Source: a virus
DNA: 20,707 nucleotides
Virus record (IMG/VR): IMGVR_UViG_3300008470_000032
Coordinates: 1 to 20,707 of that record
Direction: 5' to 3' (one strand)
Both the position numbers and the translations under genes were made by a program. This document shows positions 4,630-20,627 of the stretch, one piece after another. The notes below the pieces were generated by a model. That model did not search any database and had not been told where the DNA came from. It saw only the letters and a list, made by a program, of their open reading frames with translations. How positions within the stretch are numbered: position 1 is the first letter of the stretch; each line of letters begins with the position of its first letter.

Positions 4630-5637
4630 TTATGCTACAACTGGTATTACAATTCCTGTTGCTAATAAAGATTTATTAACCTCTGCGATTAACAAATTCA
4701 TGTCAGCTGTATCTTGTATTACAAGAGTGAATTGTTTTTTAGACTTAATTTGAGCATCATCTCTTCCTTCATCGTAGTATCCAATTTCTAAAATGTGGTA
4801 AGTACCAGCTAAAATAGAATTATATACTGCATCAAAGTTATGAGGGTAACCCATTTGTCTGAAAGAATCTTCTCTATTTCCTAAGAAATAGTATTCCATG
4901 TTTCTTACTTGATAACCTGTACCTATACCATCACTCCCTGGAGTTAATGTATCAGTTGCTGGAGTATCACCACCACTAAAGTTAGCTCTCCACATCATAG
5001 TTAATCTATCTTTTTTACCTGTAACATAATACTCAGGTATCCAATTTTTCTCTGTAATAACTAATGCTGCTGTTGTAGTTGCACCAGTTTTAGTGAAAGT
5101 AAATCCTGTGTTTGTTGTTGGAGTTGAACCTTGCTCACGAGAGAAGTTTCTATTCAAAGAAGCAATTAAACCATCTACGATATCTTCTGCATCATCTCCT
5201 GTTTTAGACTTAAAGAAAGCCTCTTTAATGTATTCATTTTCTACTGAAAGAGAACCAAACCCTGCTATTGTAATTCTTACAGAATACAATTTGTTAGCTA
5301 CAGCATCAATAACTGAAAAAGTTTGTATTTTTTGTACAGGTGCAGCATATGATTTTGAACTAGCATATGTTACTCTTTTAGGGTTGATAACATCACTCAA
5401 TGTCATTTTACCTTTATGATTCCTAAGTGCAATTAGAAGTTCAGAGTTATTGGCAACAGCTAACCCACTAGGTTGTGATGCTAATACATCTAAATTAGTT
5501 CCATCATCCTTAAGAACTTTTACTAAGCTAGTCTCATCTGTATTGATTTGACCAGACCCACCTGATACGGTGTCTAATGTTGGGTAGCGATTTGCTACAA
5601 ACATGTTTCTTACTTGAATTTCGCCTATCATTGACAT
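4630..5637 (-). CDS. Virion structural protein (335 aa), possible tail/connector component
   Basis: A 335-aa soluble protein with no signal peptide or transmembrane segment. The N-terminus (MSMIGEIQVRNMFVANRYPT) and C-terminus (YHILEIGYYDEGRDDAQIKS, followed by a beta-strand and a helix) are well-ordered mixed alpha/beta segments. The middle is Thr/Ser/Gly-rich and beta (SFTR-type strands, TPATDTLTPGSDGIGTG loop at about 226-242). This composition fits a self-assembling virion protein such as a tail-tube, tail-sheath-like or tail-adaptor subunit, but I cannot name the fold from sequence alone. It follows the connector-like 247-aa gene by 16 bp and is the last gene before a strong terminator, which suggests abundant, unit-bounded expression. 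Upstream of the start is A/T-rich (TTTAATTAAAAATTATAA), with no Shine-Dalgarno. Confidence 0.55.
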   Translation of the reverse strand: MSMIGEIQVRNMFVANRYPTLDTVSGGSGQINTDETSLVKVLKDDGTNLDVLASQPSGLAVANNSELLIALRNHKGKMTLSDVINPKRVTYASSKSYAAPVQKIQTFSVIDAVANKLYSVRITIAGFGSLSVENEYIKEAFFKSKTGDDAEDIVDGLIASLNRNFSREQGSTPTTNTGFTFTKTGATTTAALVITEKNWIPEYYVTGKKDRLTMMWRANFSGGDTPATDTLTPGSDGIGTGYQVRNMEYYFLGNREDSFRQMGYPHNFDAVYNSILAGTYHILEIGYYDEGRDDAQIKSKKQFTLVIQDTADMNLLIAEVNKSLLATGIVIPVVA

Positions 5638-7352: not shown

Positions 7353-8183
7353 TTATCCTAATACCTCAGGTATAATTTGTGCTGTTCTACTTGGGTCATA
7401 TACAACTGTTGCCAATTGACAGAATTTAGTTACGATTGCACTATCTTCATCATGTGAACCATGCATGTTGTTAGCTCCACCAGTAAATGGATTTCTGAAT
7501 CCCCATCTGTACATTCTGTATTCTTCAGAATTTTTGATAGCTACTTTCTGGATATTTGGTTGTTGTGGAGTTCCGATATAGAAAATATCATATCTGTAAG
7601 ACTCTGCAACACCTCTAGAACCAGGGAATTGTATCTTGTTTCTTTCTTTATCATCGTAGAAATCATCAACTTCAACTTTGATTGTTACACCATTAGGTGC
7701 AAAATACTCAGTGAATTGGAATCCTGCTTTGAATGAGTTTTCATGTAATTCAGAACTTGTTTTTTGAATAGTTGCTGGATTAGTTCCTGGGTTTCCAATG
7801 TTACTTGCCCAACCTGAAGTTGAATTAAGTACTGCTTTATGGAATCCATAAGCTCCCCTTTCACCTGTACGTAACATGAAAGTTCTTTCTGTAAATCCTA
7901 ATTTACCTTCTGATAAAGTAAGTAAGATTTCTTCTAACATTTCTAAGTCAAATTGACCATCATAATAGAATGTGTTTGCATATTCCATTTGCTCTCTAAT
8001 ACCAGAACCCATTTTGATTTGCCATCCTGATTTGTCAATATTATGGTATTCACCTTTAGTATCACGATTTGTTCTACCGAACATTAAAGCTCTGTTTTTG
8101 TACATAGAGAATTCTTGCTCTACTAACCAGTCTTCATACAATCCTAAAACATTAAAAGATTTTTGTGCTCCTGCATTATCCAC
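7353..8183 (-). CDS. Major capsid protein, C-terminal part (reached by -1 frame)
   Basis: This frame holds the C-terminal part of the major capsid protein. Opened back to the A4 run at 8243-8246 it reads ISHKIAGNAQNKKIAV, then VDNAGAQKSFNVLGLYEDWL, and continues for 296 codons to TAA at 7353. It is rich in capsid-like segments such as YEDWLVEQEFSMYKNRALMF and MYRWGFRNPFTGGANNMHG. The only nearby start is a GTG at 8183 with no ribosome-binding site, inside what should be continuous coding sequence, so independent translation is unlikely. Joined to the 206 codons upstream of the slip it gives a 502-aa protein, about the size I expect for crAss-like capsid proteins. The shift may be a sequencing or assembly error in a homopolymer, a real mutation, or programmed frameshifting. 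Without it, this part would not be made. Confidence 0.8.
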   Translation of the reverse strand: MDNAGAQKSFNVLGLYEDWLVEQEFSMYKNRALMFGRTNRDTKGEYHNIDKSGWQIKMGSGIREQMEYANTFYYDGQFDLEMLEEILLTLSEGKLGFTERTFMLRTGERGAYGFHKAVLNSTSGWASNIGNPGTNPATIQKTSSELHENSFKAGFQFTEYFAPNGVTIKVEVDDFYDDKERNKIQFPGSRGVAESYRYDIFYIGTPQQPNIQKVAIKNSEEYRMYRWGFRNPFTGGANNMHGSHDEDSAIVTKFCQLATVVYDPSRTAQIIPEVLG

Positions 8184-8194
8184 AACTGGGATAC

Positions 8195-8860
8195 CTACTG
8201 CAATCTTTTTATTTTGAGCATTACCTGCAATCTTATGAGAAATTTTAATGTTGAAACATCACCTCTCATTGATACTGGAGTAACACGTCTAACTCCACCA
8301 ACATCTCTTGATAAACCTCTACCTACAGCAGCGTAATCTACAGAGAATCTTTTTCCTCTAACTAATTCTTCACCTGGAATACCATTTTCAGTGTCTCCAC
8401 CAAAGCATTCTACAAGATAAACAAAGTTAAGTCCTTCTGGCTTAGGTTCCTTAAGAACTCTAATTGGATATAATTCATTTTTCTCACCTACGATAGTTTC
8501 TCCATCAAAGAACCAAAGTTCTGGAAATACTAATTCGAATTGAGTTCCACCTTCACCAATGTTGAATTCACCATCAGTTACTATTGCTCCTTTGTAACGT
8601 GCTTCCACTAATGGAATATTACGTCTAGAACTTCCTATCAATTCCCAATAGAAATCTCTATCATCTTCGATGTATTTCGTTGGAAATTTGTTTAATAAAG
8701 CCTCTAAGCTTCTACCACGATTGATGGCAAGCAATTTGATAAACATATTGTTTATCTTTTGAGGACTACGTTTGTACATTGCATCCAAAGTATTCTCAGG
8801 ATTAATCATCCCTGCGATAGCCTGTGAATCTGTAACTTGGTATCTACCTAATTGAAACAT
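8195..8860 (-). CDS. Major capsid protein, N-terminal part (0 frame)
   Basis: It starts at the ATG at 8860, preceded by the A-rich leader shared with the fibre gene. The first 206 codons run through MFQLGRYQVTDSQAIAGMIN, the helical segment NNMFIKLLAINRGRSLEALL, the beta segment FWELIGSSRRNIPLVEARYKG (residues about 71-91) and VTPVSMRGDVSTLK. This fits the N-arm, long helix and P-domain start of an HK97-fold capsid protein. After the A4 run the 0 frame continues for only 14 to 15 residues of low-quality sequence (FLIRLQVMLKIKRLQ) and ends at TAG 8195-8197, the only TAG stop among the window's genes. The true protein continues in the -1 frame (see 7353-8183). The gene follows the scaffold protein by 31 bp, the usual scaffold-capsid order. 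Confidence 0.8.
   Translation of the reverse strand: MFQLGRYQVTDSQAIAGMINPENTLDAMYKRSPQKINNMFIKLLAINRGRSLEALLNKFPTKYIEDDRDFYWELIGSSRRNIPLVEARYKGAIVTDGEFNIGEGGTQFELVFPELWFFDGETIVGEKNELYPIRVLKEPKPEGLNFVYLVECFGGDTENGIPGEELVRGKRFSVDYAAVGRGLSRDVGGVRRVTPVSMRGDVSTLKFLIRLQVMLKIKRLQ
8243..8246 (-). other. -1 frameshift point in the capsid gene (A4 run)
   Basis: The minus strand reads ACA TTA AAA TTT CTC in the 0 frame. Re-reading one A gives AAA ATT TCT CAT AAG and restores the capsid frame. A P-site tRNA-Lys could slip from AAA to the preceding AAA. The site is not a canonical X-XXY-YYZ heptamer, and no strong downstream hairpin is seen, so an uncalled fifth A is the simplest explanation. Confidence 0.75.
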
Positions 8861-10797: not shown

Positions 10798-10980
10798 TTA
10801 TATTCTATCACGTATCTCTGCACATCTTTCGAATTCATCAGTAGTTTCATAATATAATCTACATCTATCTAAAAATTCTACATCGTATGACTTCATTACT
10901 TCTCCATATGATGTACTATCTAGTATTGTTTCTATGGTTGCCATGTGGGGATTTTTAGAATTATTTTTTCTTTTTATCAT
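10798..10980 (-). CDS. Small UVR-motif-like protein in the lysis cassette
   Basis: A 60-aa ORF, 16 bp upstream of the spanin-like gene. The 3' end (DRCRLYYETTDEFERCAEIR, then DRI) resembles a UVR helix-hairpin as seen in UvrB/UvrC and in small phage proteins, where conserved E-x-x-A-x-x-I/L-R-D spacing occurs. The start is uncertain. The ATG at 10980 lies inside the holin gene (20-bp overlap). An alternative ATG at 10944 (MATIETILDSTSYGEVMKSY) starts just after the holin stop and gives 48 residues, which looks better as a folded unit. Function unknown; a small regulatory protein is possible. Confidence 0.5.
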   Translation of the reverse strand: MIKRKNNSKNPHMATIETILDSTSYGEVMKSYDVEFLDRCRLYYETTDEFERCAEIRDRI

Positions 10981-11545
10981 CTCCTAGTTTTTTAAAAAAT
11001 TTACCTTCTAAAATTTCAAATATCTTTTCTACAAGTTTAAATATATAAAGAGATTTATTAAATCTTCTCTCTATATTCTCACCTATACTAATGTATTCTC
11101 TTAATGTTACAAGCACTAAAGGTATAGTTGTTATAATCTCATATGTAGTGTTCATATACTTTAAATCTTCAAACTTAGTTCCTATAATATCAGCTAACCA
11201 TATCCATAAGAATAGCATTAAGAATTTAAAGAATGTAAATGTTATCTTTCGACTATTAAACTTTTTATCATAGGCTTCTTTCTTGTTTCCTTCTCTAATG
11301 GCTTTCAACTCTTCGAATCTACTGGCCATTACACCAGTCCAGAAGTCAACCATAAATAAAACAGATATCAATATTAAAAAGCTAGTAGAAACACCAAGAA
11401 AACTTGTATTAAGAATTTTATGAGTTATCTCAATACCTATACTTAATGCTGTAGATACAGGTAATAACATACCTTTTTTGTACATTACTGTCTTTGCGAA
11501 TAATGTAGCAAATGGGGAAAAATATATCTTCATATCATCTAACAT
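10961..11545 (-). CDS. Holin (phage_holin_4 / TcdE-like family)
   Basis: A 194-aa protein with hydrophobic segments at about 26-45, 50-75, 101-122 and 135-148. The signature MVDFWTGVMASRFEELKA, then KEAYDKKFNSRKITF and WLADIIGTKF, matches the TcdE-like holin family (phage_holin_4_1), and the REYISIGENIERR segment after the last hydrophobic stretch fits too. The C-terminus is very Lys-rich (KKLGDDKKKK), usual for holins. It would form membrane lesions that time lysis. The start is 2 nt after the portal stop, so it is probably translationally coupled to the portal gene. At 194 aa it is longer than the typical 100-150-aa member because of the C-terminal helix. Confidence 0.75.
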   Translation of the reverse strand: MLDDMKIYFSPFATLFAKTVMYKKGMLLPVSTALSIGIEITHKILNTSFLGVSTSFLILISVLFMVDFWTGVMASRFEELKAIREGNKKEAYDKKFNSRKITFTFFKFLMLFLWIWLADIIGTKFEDLKYMNTTYEIITTIPLVLVTLREYISIGENIERRFNKSLYIFKLVEKIFEILEGKFFKKLGDDKKKK

Positions 11546-17012: not shown

Positions 17013-17336
17013 TTACTCCTTCTTTGCTCTAGGTTTTCTAGGCTTTCTTGATTTTTTTACCGGAGTAGGTCTATCATCTCTAATAGCCTCTTTTGGAAAA
17101 GCTTCCTTTGGAGTTACTGGGACCATCTTTACTTTAGTTTCCCTAATTTTCCTAAGTTCATTCTTAACCAATATTAAATCTCTATTAAGACTTTTTAACT
17201 TAACATCTCTATTTTTAATATCTATTGATAATTTTAAATTATCTTCTTTACAAATCTTAGCAGTTTCTTTCATTTCAAAGTAACCCCATGTTACTAATAA
17301 TAATGCTGCTATTAATACTATAACTAATATTCCCAT
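17013..17336 (-). CDS. Small membrane/coiled-coil protein with basic tail
   Basis: A 107-aa protein with one N-terminal transmembrane helix (about 2-18, GILVIVLIAALLLVTWG), a coiled-coil region (about 22-70, KEDNLKLSIDIKNRDVKLKS) and a Lys/Arg/Pro-rich tail (KKSRKPRKPRAKKE). The architecture is like an inner-membrane spanin or other membrane-anchored phage protein, but the basic tail could also bind DNA or RNA if it is cytoplasmic. It is the last gene of its unit, 11 bp after the GroES-like gene and just before a terminator. I do not recognise a specific family. Confidence 0.55.
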   Translation of the reverse strand: MGILVIVLIAALLLVTWGYFEMKETAKICKEDNLKLSIDIKNRDVKLKSLNRDLILVKNELRKIRETKVKMVPVTPKEAFPKEAIRDDRPTPVKKSRKPRKPRAKKE

Positions 17337-17881: not shown

Positions 17882-18141
17882 TCTTCTCGCTTTTTAAATT
17901 TTTTAAAACTATAAACGTTAGCATACATTTTCCCAATGTATGGTATATTAAAATTCTTACATTTTTCTAAGAACTCTTCCTCTGTTTTAATGTTGGGTAC
18001 ATCTACTGATGATATTGTTTTTCTGATAAACTTGAAAGGTGACTCTATAATTTGTGTAACTTGGTCAATTTCAACTCCATATTTTAAAGCTAATGCTTTG
18101 ACTATATTTCGTTGCCTTTTATCCAATTTCATCTGGTACAA
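17878..18141 (-). CDS. Small conserved phage protein, possibly HU/IHF-like
   Basis: An 87-aa basic protein: KLDKRQRNIVKALALKYGVE (helix), then SPFKFIRKTISSVDVP, and FNIPYIGKMYANVYSF before a Lys-rich end. The order 'helix - S-P-F-x-F-I - helix - F-x-I-P-x-I-G-K-x-Y' looks like compact HU/IHF-type or other nucleic-acid-binding small proteins of crAss-like phages, but the match is weak. It overlaps the 110-aa gene by 23 bp and the 177-aa gene by 4 bp. The ATG at 18132 (MKLDKRQRN) would be an equally good start and lowers the overlap. Confidence 0.5.
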   Translation of the reverse strand: MYQMKLDKRQRNIVKALALKYGVEIDQVTQIIESPFKFIRKTISSVDVPNIKTEEEFLEKCKNFNIPYIGKMYANVYSFKKFKKREE

Positions 18142-18451
18142 TATTAAAATTAAATACTAATTTAAAATTCTCCCCTGTCAATGAAGGTATTAAACCTTTA
18201 TTGATATTGTTATCTTTGTCTATGATATTTTTAGTTCTTAAGGCTGATATCATATTGTTTAATATTTGAGAACTTGAGTAGTTTAGTTTGTCTCGTATTT
18301 CATTTCTACTCTCTGTATCAAATAACATCTTAGTTAATATCTTGTCATCCTTAATTACTTTCTCTAACTGATACCTTTTATAAAGAAATAGACCTAATAA
18401 TTCTATTTCTTTCTGTCTTAATCCATGATATGGTTTAAAAATTCTAACCAT
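18119..18451 (-). CDS. Small helical (winged-helix-like) phage protein
   Basis: A 110-aa protein with a helical N-terminus (GLRQKEIELLGLFLYKRYQL), a middle helix (TKMLFDTESRNEIRDKLNYS), then SSSQILNNMISALRTKNIID and LTGENFKLVFNFNIVPDE. The helix-turn-helix look of 'R-x-E-I-R-D-K-L-N-x-S-x-S-Q-I-L-N-N...L-R-x-K-N-I-I' resembles winged-helix DNA-binding proteins. I recall similar small proteins in phages of Bacteroidota hosts. It overlaps the downstream 87-aa gene by 23 bp. Likely a small regulator, but this is inference. Confidence 0.5.
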   Translation of the reverse strand: MVRIFKPYHGLRQKEIELLGLFLYKRYQLEKVIKDDKILTKMLFDTESRNEIRDKLNYSSSQILNNMISALRTKNIIDKDNNINKGLIPSLTGENFKLVFNFNIVPDEIG

Positions 18452-18494
18452 CTTCTGAAAAATAGTTCTTCTGAGACATTTAATGTTTTTACAT

Positions 18495-18701
18495 TTAAGT
18501 TATTTCTTTGCATAATGTCATTGTGTTTCTTCCCTCTTTGCAAATATAATAATTCTTGTGTTCTTTTACAAACTTATGAATTATATCTACTTGAATTTTA
18601 GTTAATTCTAAAAATTCATGTTTGTAATAATCTCTCTCTGAGTCAATATGCCAGACTCTATCCCATTTACTTATTTCAGGAATCAATATAGTATTTTCCA
18701 T
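18495..18701 (-). CDS. Small hypothetical protein (68 aa)
   Basis: I choose the ATG at 18701 (MENTILIPEISKWDRVWHID...). The frame is open to an earlier ATG at 18773, but that start would overlap the zinc-ribbon gene by 98 bp instead of 26 bp. Visible features are acidic/aromatic segments (KWDRVWHIDSERDYYKHEFL) and a Lys-rich helix (VDIIHKFVKEHKNYYIC). It has no recognised domain. The leader is A-rich. Confidence 0.45.
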   Translation of the reverse strand: MENTILIPEISKWDRVWHIDSERDYYKHEFLELTKIQVDIIHKFVKEHKNYYICKEGRNTMTLCKEIT

Positions 18702-19178: not shown

Positions 19179-19182
19179 ATTG

Positions 19183-19255
19183 TGGGACAGACAAGAATTG
19201 AACTTGTACCTCTTGGGCTTCAACCAAGCGTGCAGACCAACTACACCACTCCCCC
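19183..19255 (-). tRNA. tRNA-Phe (GAA)
   Basis: Cloverleaf with anticodon loop TTGAAGC, stem CTTGG/CCAAG, D-stem GTGT/GCAC and T-stem ACAAG/CTTGT. The acceptor stem pairs except for a G5-G68 mismatch. The discriminator is A, followed by CA (no CCA). Confidence 0.85.
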
Positions 19256-19259
19256 TTAG

Positions 19260-19328
19260 CACACCTTGATAGAATCGAACTATCTCCTACAGTTTTGGAG
19301 GCTGCTTGGACACCATGTCCTAAAGTGT
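19260..19328 (-). tRNA. tRNA-Trp (CCA), compact D-arm
   Basis: Acceptor ACACTTT/AAGGTGT pairs with one G-U, T-stem GATAG/CTATC, anticodon loop CTCCAAA, discriminator G as expected for Trp. The D-arm is short (GGAC-ATGGT-GTCC) and the total is only 69 nt; the anticodon stem has a C31-A39 mismatch. Confidence 0.7.
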
Positions 19329-19333
19329 ATTTG

Positions 19334-19404
19334 ACACTAGAGAGAGAATCAAACTCTCAATAACAGTTTTGCAGACTGCTAGCTTCATCATCAGCATTCT
19401 AGTG
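19334..19404 (-). tRNA. tRNA-Cys (GCA)
   Basis: A perfect acceptor stem CACTAGA/TCTAGTG, anticodon loop CTGCAAA in stem GCAGT/ACTGT, and discriminator U73, the identity element of tRNA-Cys. Followed by CA. Confidence 0.85.
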
Positions 19405-19408
19405 ATTG

Positions 19409-19480
19409 AGTCAAAGGTCAGATTTGAACTGACGACCTGAGTGTTAACAGCACCCTGCTCTACCCCTGAGCTACTAAGAC
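19409..19480 (-). tRNA. tRNA-Asn (GTT)
   Basis: D-stem GCTC/GAGC, anticodon stem GGGTG/CACTC with loop CTGTTAA, T-stem GTCAG/CTGAC. The acceptor stem GTCTTAG/CTTTGAC has two U-U mismatches. The discriminator is U, followed by CA. Confidence 0.8.
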
Positions 19481-19486
19481 ATATTG

Positions 19487-19569
19487 TAGAAAGAGGAGTA
19501 ATTGAAACCCAAGGCTTTCACCTCTCATCCCTTAGCAGGGGAGTCCTACACCTTGCAGGTTCACTTTCT
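19487..19569 (-). tRNA. tRNA-Ser (GCT)
   Basis: Class II tRNA with a long variable arm, anticodon loop CTGCTAA, acceptor AGAAAGT/TCTTTCT with a U7-U66 mismatch and a weak T-stem. It decodes AGY serine codons. Discriminator A, followed by CA. Confidence 0.75.
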
Positions 19570-19574
19570 ATTAG

Positions 19575-19657
19575 AGGAAGATAGAGTAATCGAAACCCCA
19601 AGCTTTAATACTTGACCAGATGTTCAAAACCTGTTTGCTACCTTAGCGTTACCTTCC
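19575..19657 (-). tRNA. tRNA-Ser (TGA)
   Basis: Class II, with variable-arm stem CAAG/CTTG. Anticodon loop TTTGAAC in stem CAGGT/ATCTG, acceptor GGAAGGT/ATCTTCC (one G-U). Discriminator U, followed by CT. Confidence 0.8.
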
Positions 19658-19661
19658 ATTG

Positions 19662-19732
19662 TTGGCTAGGTAGGAATTGAACCTACTCAGTAGAGTTTTA
19701 CAGACTCGCTGGATACCTTATCTCCCTAACCA
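19662..19732 (-). tRNA. tRNA-Tyr (GTA), short variable loop
   Basis: Acceptor TGGTTAG/CTAGCCA, T-stem GTAGG/CCTAC, anticodon loop CTGTAAA. The variable region is only a few nt, although bacterial tRNA-Tyr normally has a long variable arm. Discriminator A, followed by CA. A terminator ends 8 bp upstream. Confidence 0.75.
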
Positions 19733-19739
19733 TTATATA

Positions 19740-19768
19740 TAAAAAAAGTCCTACATTTCTGTAGGACT
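19740..19768 (-). terminator. Internal terminator within the tRNA array
   Basis: A perfect 9-bp stem AGTCCTACA/TGTAGGACT closed by a GAAA tetraloop and followed by T-runs on the minus strand. It lies just upstream of tRNA-Tyr, so the Tyr-to-Phe half may depend on read-through, processing or another promoter. Confidence 0.85.
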
Positions 19769-19810
19769 CTTAATAATTAACATTTAAATTTGTATTATGA
19801 ACAAAAGAAT

Positions 19811-19865
19811 ATAGTTTAATCACATAAAAGTCCTGCTTGGCAATTATACCAAGAACTAAAACTAT
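19811..19865 (-). ncRNA. Structured RNA element in the tRNA array
   Basis: On the minus strand a 7-bp outer stem (ATAGTTT/AAACTAT) encloses a second stem made of AGTTC/GGACT and TTGG/CCAA, with a GCA bulge and an 8-nt loop. One G-U pair forms only in the minus-strand RNA. It is too short (55 nt) for a standard tRNA and has no T-arm. It lies between promoter-like boxes and a terminator, so it may be part of a small transcript of about 150 nt. Confidence 0.45.
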
Positions 19866-19887
19866 TATATGAATATGATTTTCTCAT
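19816..19887 (-). CDS. Possible 23-aa micropeptide overlapping the structured RNA
   Basis: ATG at 19887, TAA at 19816. It begins MRKSYSYN and ends NCQAGLLCD, with two Cys and several aromatic residues. The start codon is 8 nt after a -7-like box, as in the leaderless-looking 77-aa gene. It may be chance, or the real product of the mini-unit. No family is recognised. Confidence 0.25.
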   Translation of the reverse strand: MRKSYSYNSFSSWYNCQAGLLCD

Positions 19888-19894
19888 TACACTG

Positions 19895-19924
19895 TAAAGA
19901 TATAACTTTATTTTAAATAAACAA
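19895..19924 (-). promoter_or_regulatory. Promoter-like element inside the tRNA array (TTG-N19-TATCTTTA)
   Basis: The -7-like TATCTTTA (19895-19902) differs from TAnnTTTG only in the last base. A TTG (19922-19924) sits 19 nt upstream, the usual Bacteroidota spacing. It lies after tRNA-Met and before the structured RNA. Confidence 0.45.
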
Positions 19925-19940
19925 TATTTTTTTAATTTTG

Positions 19941-20013
19941 TTGTCTCGATGGGACTTGAACCCATTCTCTTTCCCTTATGAGAGGAATGCTTTCCCTGTT
20001 AAGCTACGAGACG
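19941..20013 (-). tRNA. tRNA-CAU (Met-type; initiator-like C1-A72)
   Basis: Anticodon loop CTCATAA, D-stem GCTT/AAGC, T-stem ATGGG/CCCAT. Position 1-72 is a C-A mismatch, a feature of initiator tRNA, but the anticodon stem lacks the three G-C pairs of initiators. It could be Met or Ile2. Followed by CA after A73. Confidence 0.8.
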
Positions 20014-20020
20014 ATATTTG

Positions 20021-20092
20021 AGGGTTAGCCTAGATTCGAACTAGGATTAATGGTTTAGAAAACCATGGTTCTGTCCCTTGAACTACAAACCC
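20021..20092 (-). tRNA. tRNA-Arg (TCT)
   Basis: D-stem GTTC/GAAC, anticodon stem ATGGT/ACCAT with loop TTTCTAA, T-stem CCTAG/CTAGG. The acceptor GGGTTTG/CTAACCC has one U-U mismatch. It decodes AGA/AGG, which suit an AT-rich genome. Discriminator U, followed by CA. Confidence 0.85.
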
Positions 20093-20097
20093 TTGAC

Positions 20098-20127
20098 GCA
20101 ATTTATAGCTATAGCCAGGAAAATTGC
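20098..20127 (-). repeat. Inverted repeat between tRNA-Val and tRNA-Arg
   Basis: A perfect 7-bp inverted repeat GCAATTT/AAATTGC with a 16-nt loop. It may be a processing signal; no T-run follows, so it is not a terminator. Confidence 0.4.
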
Positions 20128-20138
20128 AAAACCTTTAG

Positions 20139-20211
20139 TACCAGATACTGGGATTGAACCAGTGACCTTTTGTATGTAAAACAACTGCTGCTTCCACTGA
20201 GCTAATCTGGC
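20139..20211 (-). tRNA. tRNA-Val (TAC)
   Basis: Acceptor GCCAGAT/ATCTGGT (one G-U), D-stem GCT/AGC, anticodon loop TTTACAT, T-stem ACTGG/CCAGT. The anticodon stem is weak, with one mismatch at its base. Discriminator A, followed by CT. Confidence 0.85.
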
Positions 20212-20218
20212 ATTACTG

Positions 20219-20290
20219 AGGTTCATGACAGAATCGAACTGTCTTCCTTGCATTACAAAAGCAAACGTCATCCCTAAATGCTTAAGAACC
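20219..20290 (-). tRNA. tRNA-Thr (TGT)
   Basis: Anticodon loop TTTGTAA, T-stem GACAG/CTGTC. The acceptor GGTTCTT/ATGAACC has a U-U mismatch, and the anticodon stem has a U31-U39 mismatch. Discriminator U, followed by CA. Confidence 0.8.
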
Positions 20291-20395
20291 TGATGCCCAA
20301 TTTCATTTTAGAATTAAGCAGTTAACTAGAGGTCTTTGCCTTCTGTCAGACATTCTTAGTACAGCAATATACTTAGAATTGTTACTATCAATTTG
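20291..20395. other. Gap of about 105 bp in the tRNA array, no tRNA found
   Basis: There is no T-loop or acceptor stem of normal type. It holds the hairpin 20352-20379 and a 16-codon ORF (20303-20353, minus) that I regard as chance. It may be a degenerate tRNA or a processing spacer. Confidence 0.4.
20352..20379 (-). repeat. Hairpin in the Asp-Thr tRNA gap
   Basis: ATTCTAAGTA and TACTAAGAAT pair over 10 bp with one mismatch, closing an 8-nt loop. No T-run follows. It is a candidate RNA-processing or small-RNA structure. Confidence 0.45.
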
Positions 20396-20469
20396 CAGTC
20401 CACACGAGAGTCGAACTCGCAATCTTCTGGGTGACAACCAGATGCTGTTACCATCAACACTTCTGGACT
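20396..20469 (-). tRNA. tRNA-Asp (GTC)
   Basis: Anticodon loop TTGTCAC in stem TCTGG/CCAGA, T-stem GCGAG/CTCGT, acceptor AGTCCAG/GTGGACT with a G7-G66 mismatch. Discriminator G as expected for Asp, followed by CA. Confidence 0.85.
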
Positions 20470-20474
20470 ATTAG

Positions 20475-20549
20475 TGGCGAGTGTGGAAATCGAATCCACC
20501 TAGTTACTGCTTATGAGACAGTCGAGTGCACCAGCTCTACTTACTCGCT
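20475..20549 (-). tRNA. tRNA-CAU (second Met/Ile2-type gene)
   Basis: Anticodon loop CTCATAA in stem ACTGT/GCAGT, T-stem GTGGA/TCCAC, acceptor AGCGAGT/ACTCGCC with an A1-C72 mismatch. The D-arm is unusual. It may decode AUA after lysidine modification, or AUG. Discriminator A, followed by CT. Confidence 0.75.
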
Positions 20550-20555
20550 AAATTG

Positions 20556-20627
20556 TGTAGGTGACCAGATTCGAACTGACTCCCTAAGCTTGGAAGGCTT
20601 GCATGATGCCATTAACACCACACCTAC
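20556..20627 (-). tRNA. tRNA-Gly (TCC)
   Basis: A perfect acceptor GTAGGTG/CACCTAC, anticodon loop CTTCCAA, T-stem GTCAG/CTGGT. It decodes GGA/GGG. Discriminator A, followed by CA. Confidence 0.85.

Follow-up and report, generated by a model that had tools for sequence, protein, structure and literature searches.

Where ribosomal frameshifting is known from capsid genes, as in T7 gp10A/10B, the shift extends a capsid protein that is already complete. The major capsid protein of the Crassvirales (PF23898; phrog_11589; phiCrAss001 gp32, PDB 7qof) is usually encoded in a single uninterrupted frame, as it is in phiCrAss001, and the I-domain of the phiCrAss001 protein occupies residues 79–180 (PMC10172136). 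The uninterrupted frame is a usual rather than a strictly defining trait of the gene, as inserts are present in two phages. In the Asinivirinae phages cr111_1 and cr128_1, the capsid gene (locus L086, 501–2910, and locus L087, 501–2732, respectively) is interrupted by a homing endonuclease. These inserts, which are likely mobile introns, lie at two different places, and two “major head protein” genes are annotated in each phage. In virome assemblies, indels amount to anything from under 2 to 474 per 100 kb, depending on the method (PMC6487183).

The window analysed here is the entire IMG/VR virus record IMGVR_UViG_3300008470_000032, 20,707 bases in length. A nucleotide search of phage records gave no match. 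The minus strand carries a crAss-like structural module composed of the auxiliary capsid protein, the ring protein, the major capsid protein, the portal and the terminase. The neighbours of the capsid gene were identified by profile matches (auxiliary capsid protein, PF25650; ring protein, PF25710; portal, phrog_6547; terminase, phrog_6681), and such crAss-like structural neighbours are as expected for a Crassvirales major capsid protein gene. The auxiliary capsid protein (4630–5637, minus strand) is about 100 residues shorter than the 439-aa protein of a relative (G001), which contains a further central segment of about 140 residues. At the far end of the window, no fewer than nine phage tRNA genes are clustered at 19182–20627 on the minus strand; ARAGORN and Rfam differ on some of these tRNAs (19259–19328, 19334–19404, 19662–19732 and 20218–20290).

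The crAss-like major capsid protein gene extends from 8860 to 7353 on the minus strand, and is distributed over two frames. The upstream part (8243–8860) encodes residues 1–206 in the frame of ATG 8860, and matches positions 3–206 of the 496 positions of the PF23898 Crass_capsid profile (E 2.5e-54, 184.9 bits; cut-off 27), as well as positions 6–207 of phrog_11589, the major head protein. Homology in this frame stops at 8243; the remaining codons (8195–8242) are non-homologous and end at the TAG at 8195–8197. The downstream part (7353–8249) lies in the −1 frame, which is open from 8258, and encodes about 296 residues before the stop codon ending at 7353. It matches PF23898 positions 205–495 (E 1.1e-93, 314.7 bits; same cut-off), and is 80% identical to its counterpart in the closest relative, L002. 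The two parts thus match one capsid family without gap or overlap, jointly spanning 3–495 of the 496 profile positions. The switch between the frames is located in 8249–8243, at ACA TTA AAA TTT. Here the record has one base fewer than the Leu/Ile-Arg-Ile codons in the alignment of 53 relatives, and a run of four A bases (8243–8246) lies inside this site. Consistently, the gene spans 1,508 bases in the window and 1,509 in L002, exactly one base short.

The split of the capsid gene in this record is far beyond chance, and the first-pass annotation had described it correctly, with the upstream frame ending at TAG 8195 and 206 plus 296 residues giving 502. When aligned to a crAss-like capsid protein, as that annotation had proposed, the two parts correspond to residues 4–206 (E 9e-60) and 204–502 (E 9.7e-91) of phiCrAss001 gp32, to which the window capsid is about 49% identical. 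Homology to PDB 7qof settles the capsid fold, which would not help to tell an error from a mutation. In its 502 codons and in the full-length homology of both parts, the gene is like the Crassvirales major capsid protein gene, and it differs in that the window record alone is one base short, at about codon 206. A reassigned stop codon does not resolve the split, since readthrough of TAG 8195 remains in the wrong frame and cannot restore the capsid protein.

How is the gene arranged in the relatives? Both capsid halves are encoded in one frame in all 53 related IMG/VR records. The peptide patterns used to retrieve these relatives came exclusively from the downstream half, so that broken capsid genes would have shown up among them. 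The fusion in every IMG/VR relative speaks against the downstream half as a separate gene. Homologues with two truly separate proteins, which would have spoken against a single capsid gene, were not found among these 53 records, and the two interrupted phages carry their inserts at other sites. Among the 60 phage-record matches listed for the full-length capsid query, 58 are in one piece and two, those of cr111_1 and cr128_1, are in two pieces, with the match covering only part of the query in distant records. The capsid gene of a metagenome-assembled contig (L085), 65% identical, is also in one piece; this contig was binned as an uncultured Mollicutes genome, for which a binning error is more likely than a host link. 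An exact-pattern search for near-identical records across the capsid break gave no match in IMG/VR, from which close neighbours of the window may have been withheld. Relative to L002, the two capsid halves show 77% and 81% amino-acid identity and dN values of 0.20 and 0.18, with dS near saturation. This equal conservation indicates that the gene either still functions or ceased to do so only very recently; it fits both an error in the record and a fresh mutation, and does not discriminate between them.

The first-pass annotation had proposed that one missing A in the A run would repair the gene. The gene is indeed one base short, and repair by an A is possible, but not favoured. At the break, the relatives have Leu-Arg-Ile (3 records), Ile-Arg-Ile (41) or Ile-Arg-Met (9), and hence an arginine at the break codon in all 53. 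An error in the length of the A run would leave a lysine at this position, so the missing base is not necessarily one of the A bases. From the aligned codons, the loss of another base in the break codon appears at least as plausible. The run is also short for a homopolymer error, with four bases, and its role as the specific cause of the capsid break is unproven.

A second one-base break, missed by the first-pass annotation, is present in the same window. It lies in a small gene on the minus strand (18119–18513), whose conserved homologues have about 126–133 residues. Approximately 26 N-terminal residues are encoded in frame −2 from ATG 18513, and the rest in frame −1; the frames join where WLEFL meets KPYHGLRQKEI. 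The gene is intact in all seven relatives found, with 126–141 open codons each, and the profile built from them matches two window frames, scoring 129 bits on the main part of the gene and 20.2 bits on the N-terminal one. The break site (18433–18439) contains the slippery-type heptamer TTTAAAC, read as TTT TTA AAC in the upstream frame. This heptamer occurs eight times in the window, as compared to 8.35 expected, the same Leu-Lys/Gln-Pro stretch lies in a single frame in the relatives, and the hairpin that follows downstream is A/U-rich and weak (z −1.39 and −0.71). In view of the chance frequency, the one-frame relatives and the weak hairpin, we regard the motif as arising incidentally from the codons at this site. 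In the remaining window genes with relatives, a survey for frame breaks found none; 10798–10980, 10961–11545 and 17013–17336, which have no relatives, were left out.

Could the capsid gene be expressed through programmed −1 ribosomal frameshifting, giving both a short form of somewhat more than 206 residues and the whole capsid protein of 502? The two frames overlap and are related by a shift in the −1 direction, and a single tRNA could physically slip on A AAA; with its two open frames in the −1 relation, the gene resembles that of T7 gp10A/10B. Nevertheless, the first-pass annotation's suggestion of a short and a long form finds no support in the features expected in the sequence. The upstream capsid frame contains no XXXYYYZ heptamer at all, and the other window genes contain 41 in 5,076 codons, or about one per 124 codons. 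The RNA 3′ of the break folds no better than shuffled sequences (z +0.98, +0.84 and +0.21, with pseudoknots left out), and an Rfam scan of the window for known RNA elements detected tRNAs only. The two-frame arrangement is found in none of the 53 IMG/VR relatives. Accordingly, a slippery heptamer in the overlap, a downstream structure and conservation are all lacking. Moreover, translation of the short product would stop shortly beyond the equivalent of gp32 residue 206, not far past the I-domain, without most of the HK97-fold body; comprising 41% of the capsid protein and lacking about 60%, it would not be a complete capsid protein, unlike the short forms in the known capsid frameshifts. We consider programmed frameshifting extremely improbable for these reasons. 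Equally little credence is due to a lineage in which the short form is genuine, with the capsid protein produced through an unconventional −1 shift on A AAA and the small gene read by a slip on TTTAAAC at 18439. An intron or homing-endonuclease insert that was later lost, leaving the break as its scar, would have precedents in cr111_1 and cr128_1, but the insertion points in these phages correspond to residues 148–149 and 288–292 of the window protein, rather than 205–206, and such an origin is most doubtful.

A very recent real mutation is the next most likely explanation, and it would look identical to a consensus error. Either the phage genome would be defective, with the deletion as a recent mutation that abolished function, or the deletion would belong to a minority strain in the assembly, and no functional capsid would arise from this copy. 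The capsid break is exact and single, and the presence of two broken genes could point to genome decay. On the other hand, the portal, terminase, ring protein, auxiliary capsid protein and other genes with relatives are unbroken, and the conservation on both sides of the capsid break is unrelaxed. For a virulent phage, loss of the capsid protein is lethal without complementation. A real deletion is thus unlikely, although it deserves far more weight than frameshifting or an insertion scar. The explanation that we favour, and hold to be quite probable, is that both the capsid break (about 8243–8249) and the small-gene break (18433–18439) are consensus errors of the record, introduced by sequencing or assembly. 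It is favoured by the exact one-base deficit, the intact homologues, the conservation on both sides, and a similar break in a second conserved gene that is unrelated to the capsid gene. The first-pass annotation had likewise put an error of assembly or sequencing first, and the small gene and the intact genes in all 53 relatives now back it. Isolated one-base breaks in otherwise conserved genes, with two or more on a contig, are characteristic of the indel-type consensus errors in virome assemblies, and two breaks in 20.7 kb fall inside the reported range (PMC6487183). In another record (G015), a terminase-like gene (L082) is split over three frames, with breaks near 8443 and 9920 that are probably consensus indels as well; IMG/VR contigs of the crAss-like family therefore do carry breaks, in essential genes too. 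A survey of the relatives' regional sequences also gave single-query break signals in L065 and L083, two in all.

Under a consensus error, the crAss-like phage itself would have an ordinary single-frame capsid gene of 502 codons. The consensus of the record would have lost one base at about 8243–8249 by a sequencing or assembly error, and another in the small gene near 18433–18439. We infer that the base is absent from the record rather than from the phage. The frame break is very unlikely to represent a novel mechanism for producing two shell proteins. It instead calls for caution, as metagenomic phage records may show an essential gene in two pieces, which automatic annotation would report as a pseudogene or as two capsid genes. 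If programmed frameshifting were true, it would belong to the normal gene expression of this lineage, and if reads confirmed the short form, this would be a crAss-like lineage with an unusual way of capsid production.
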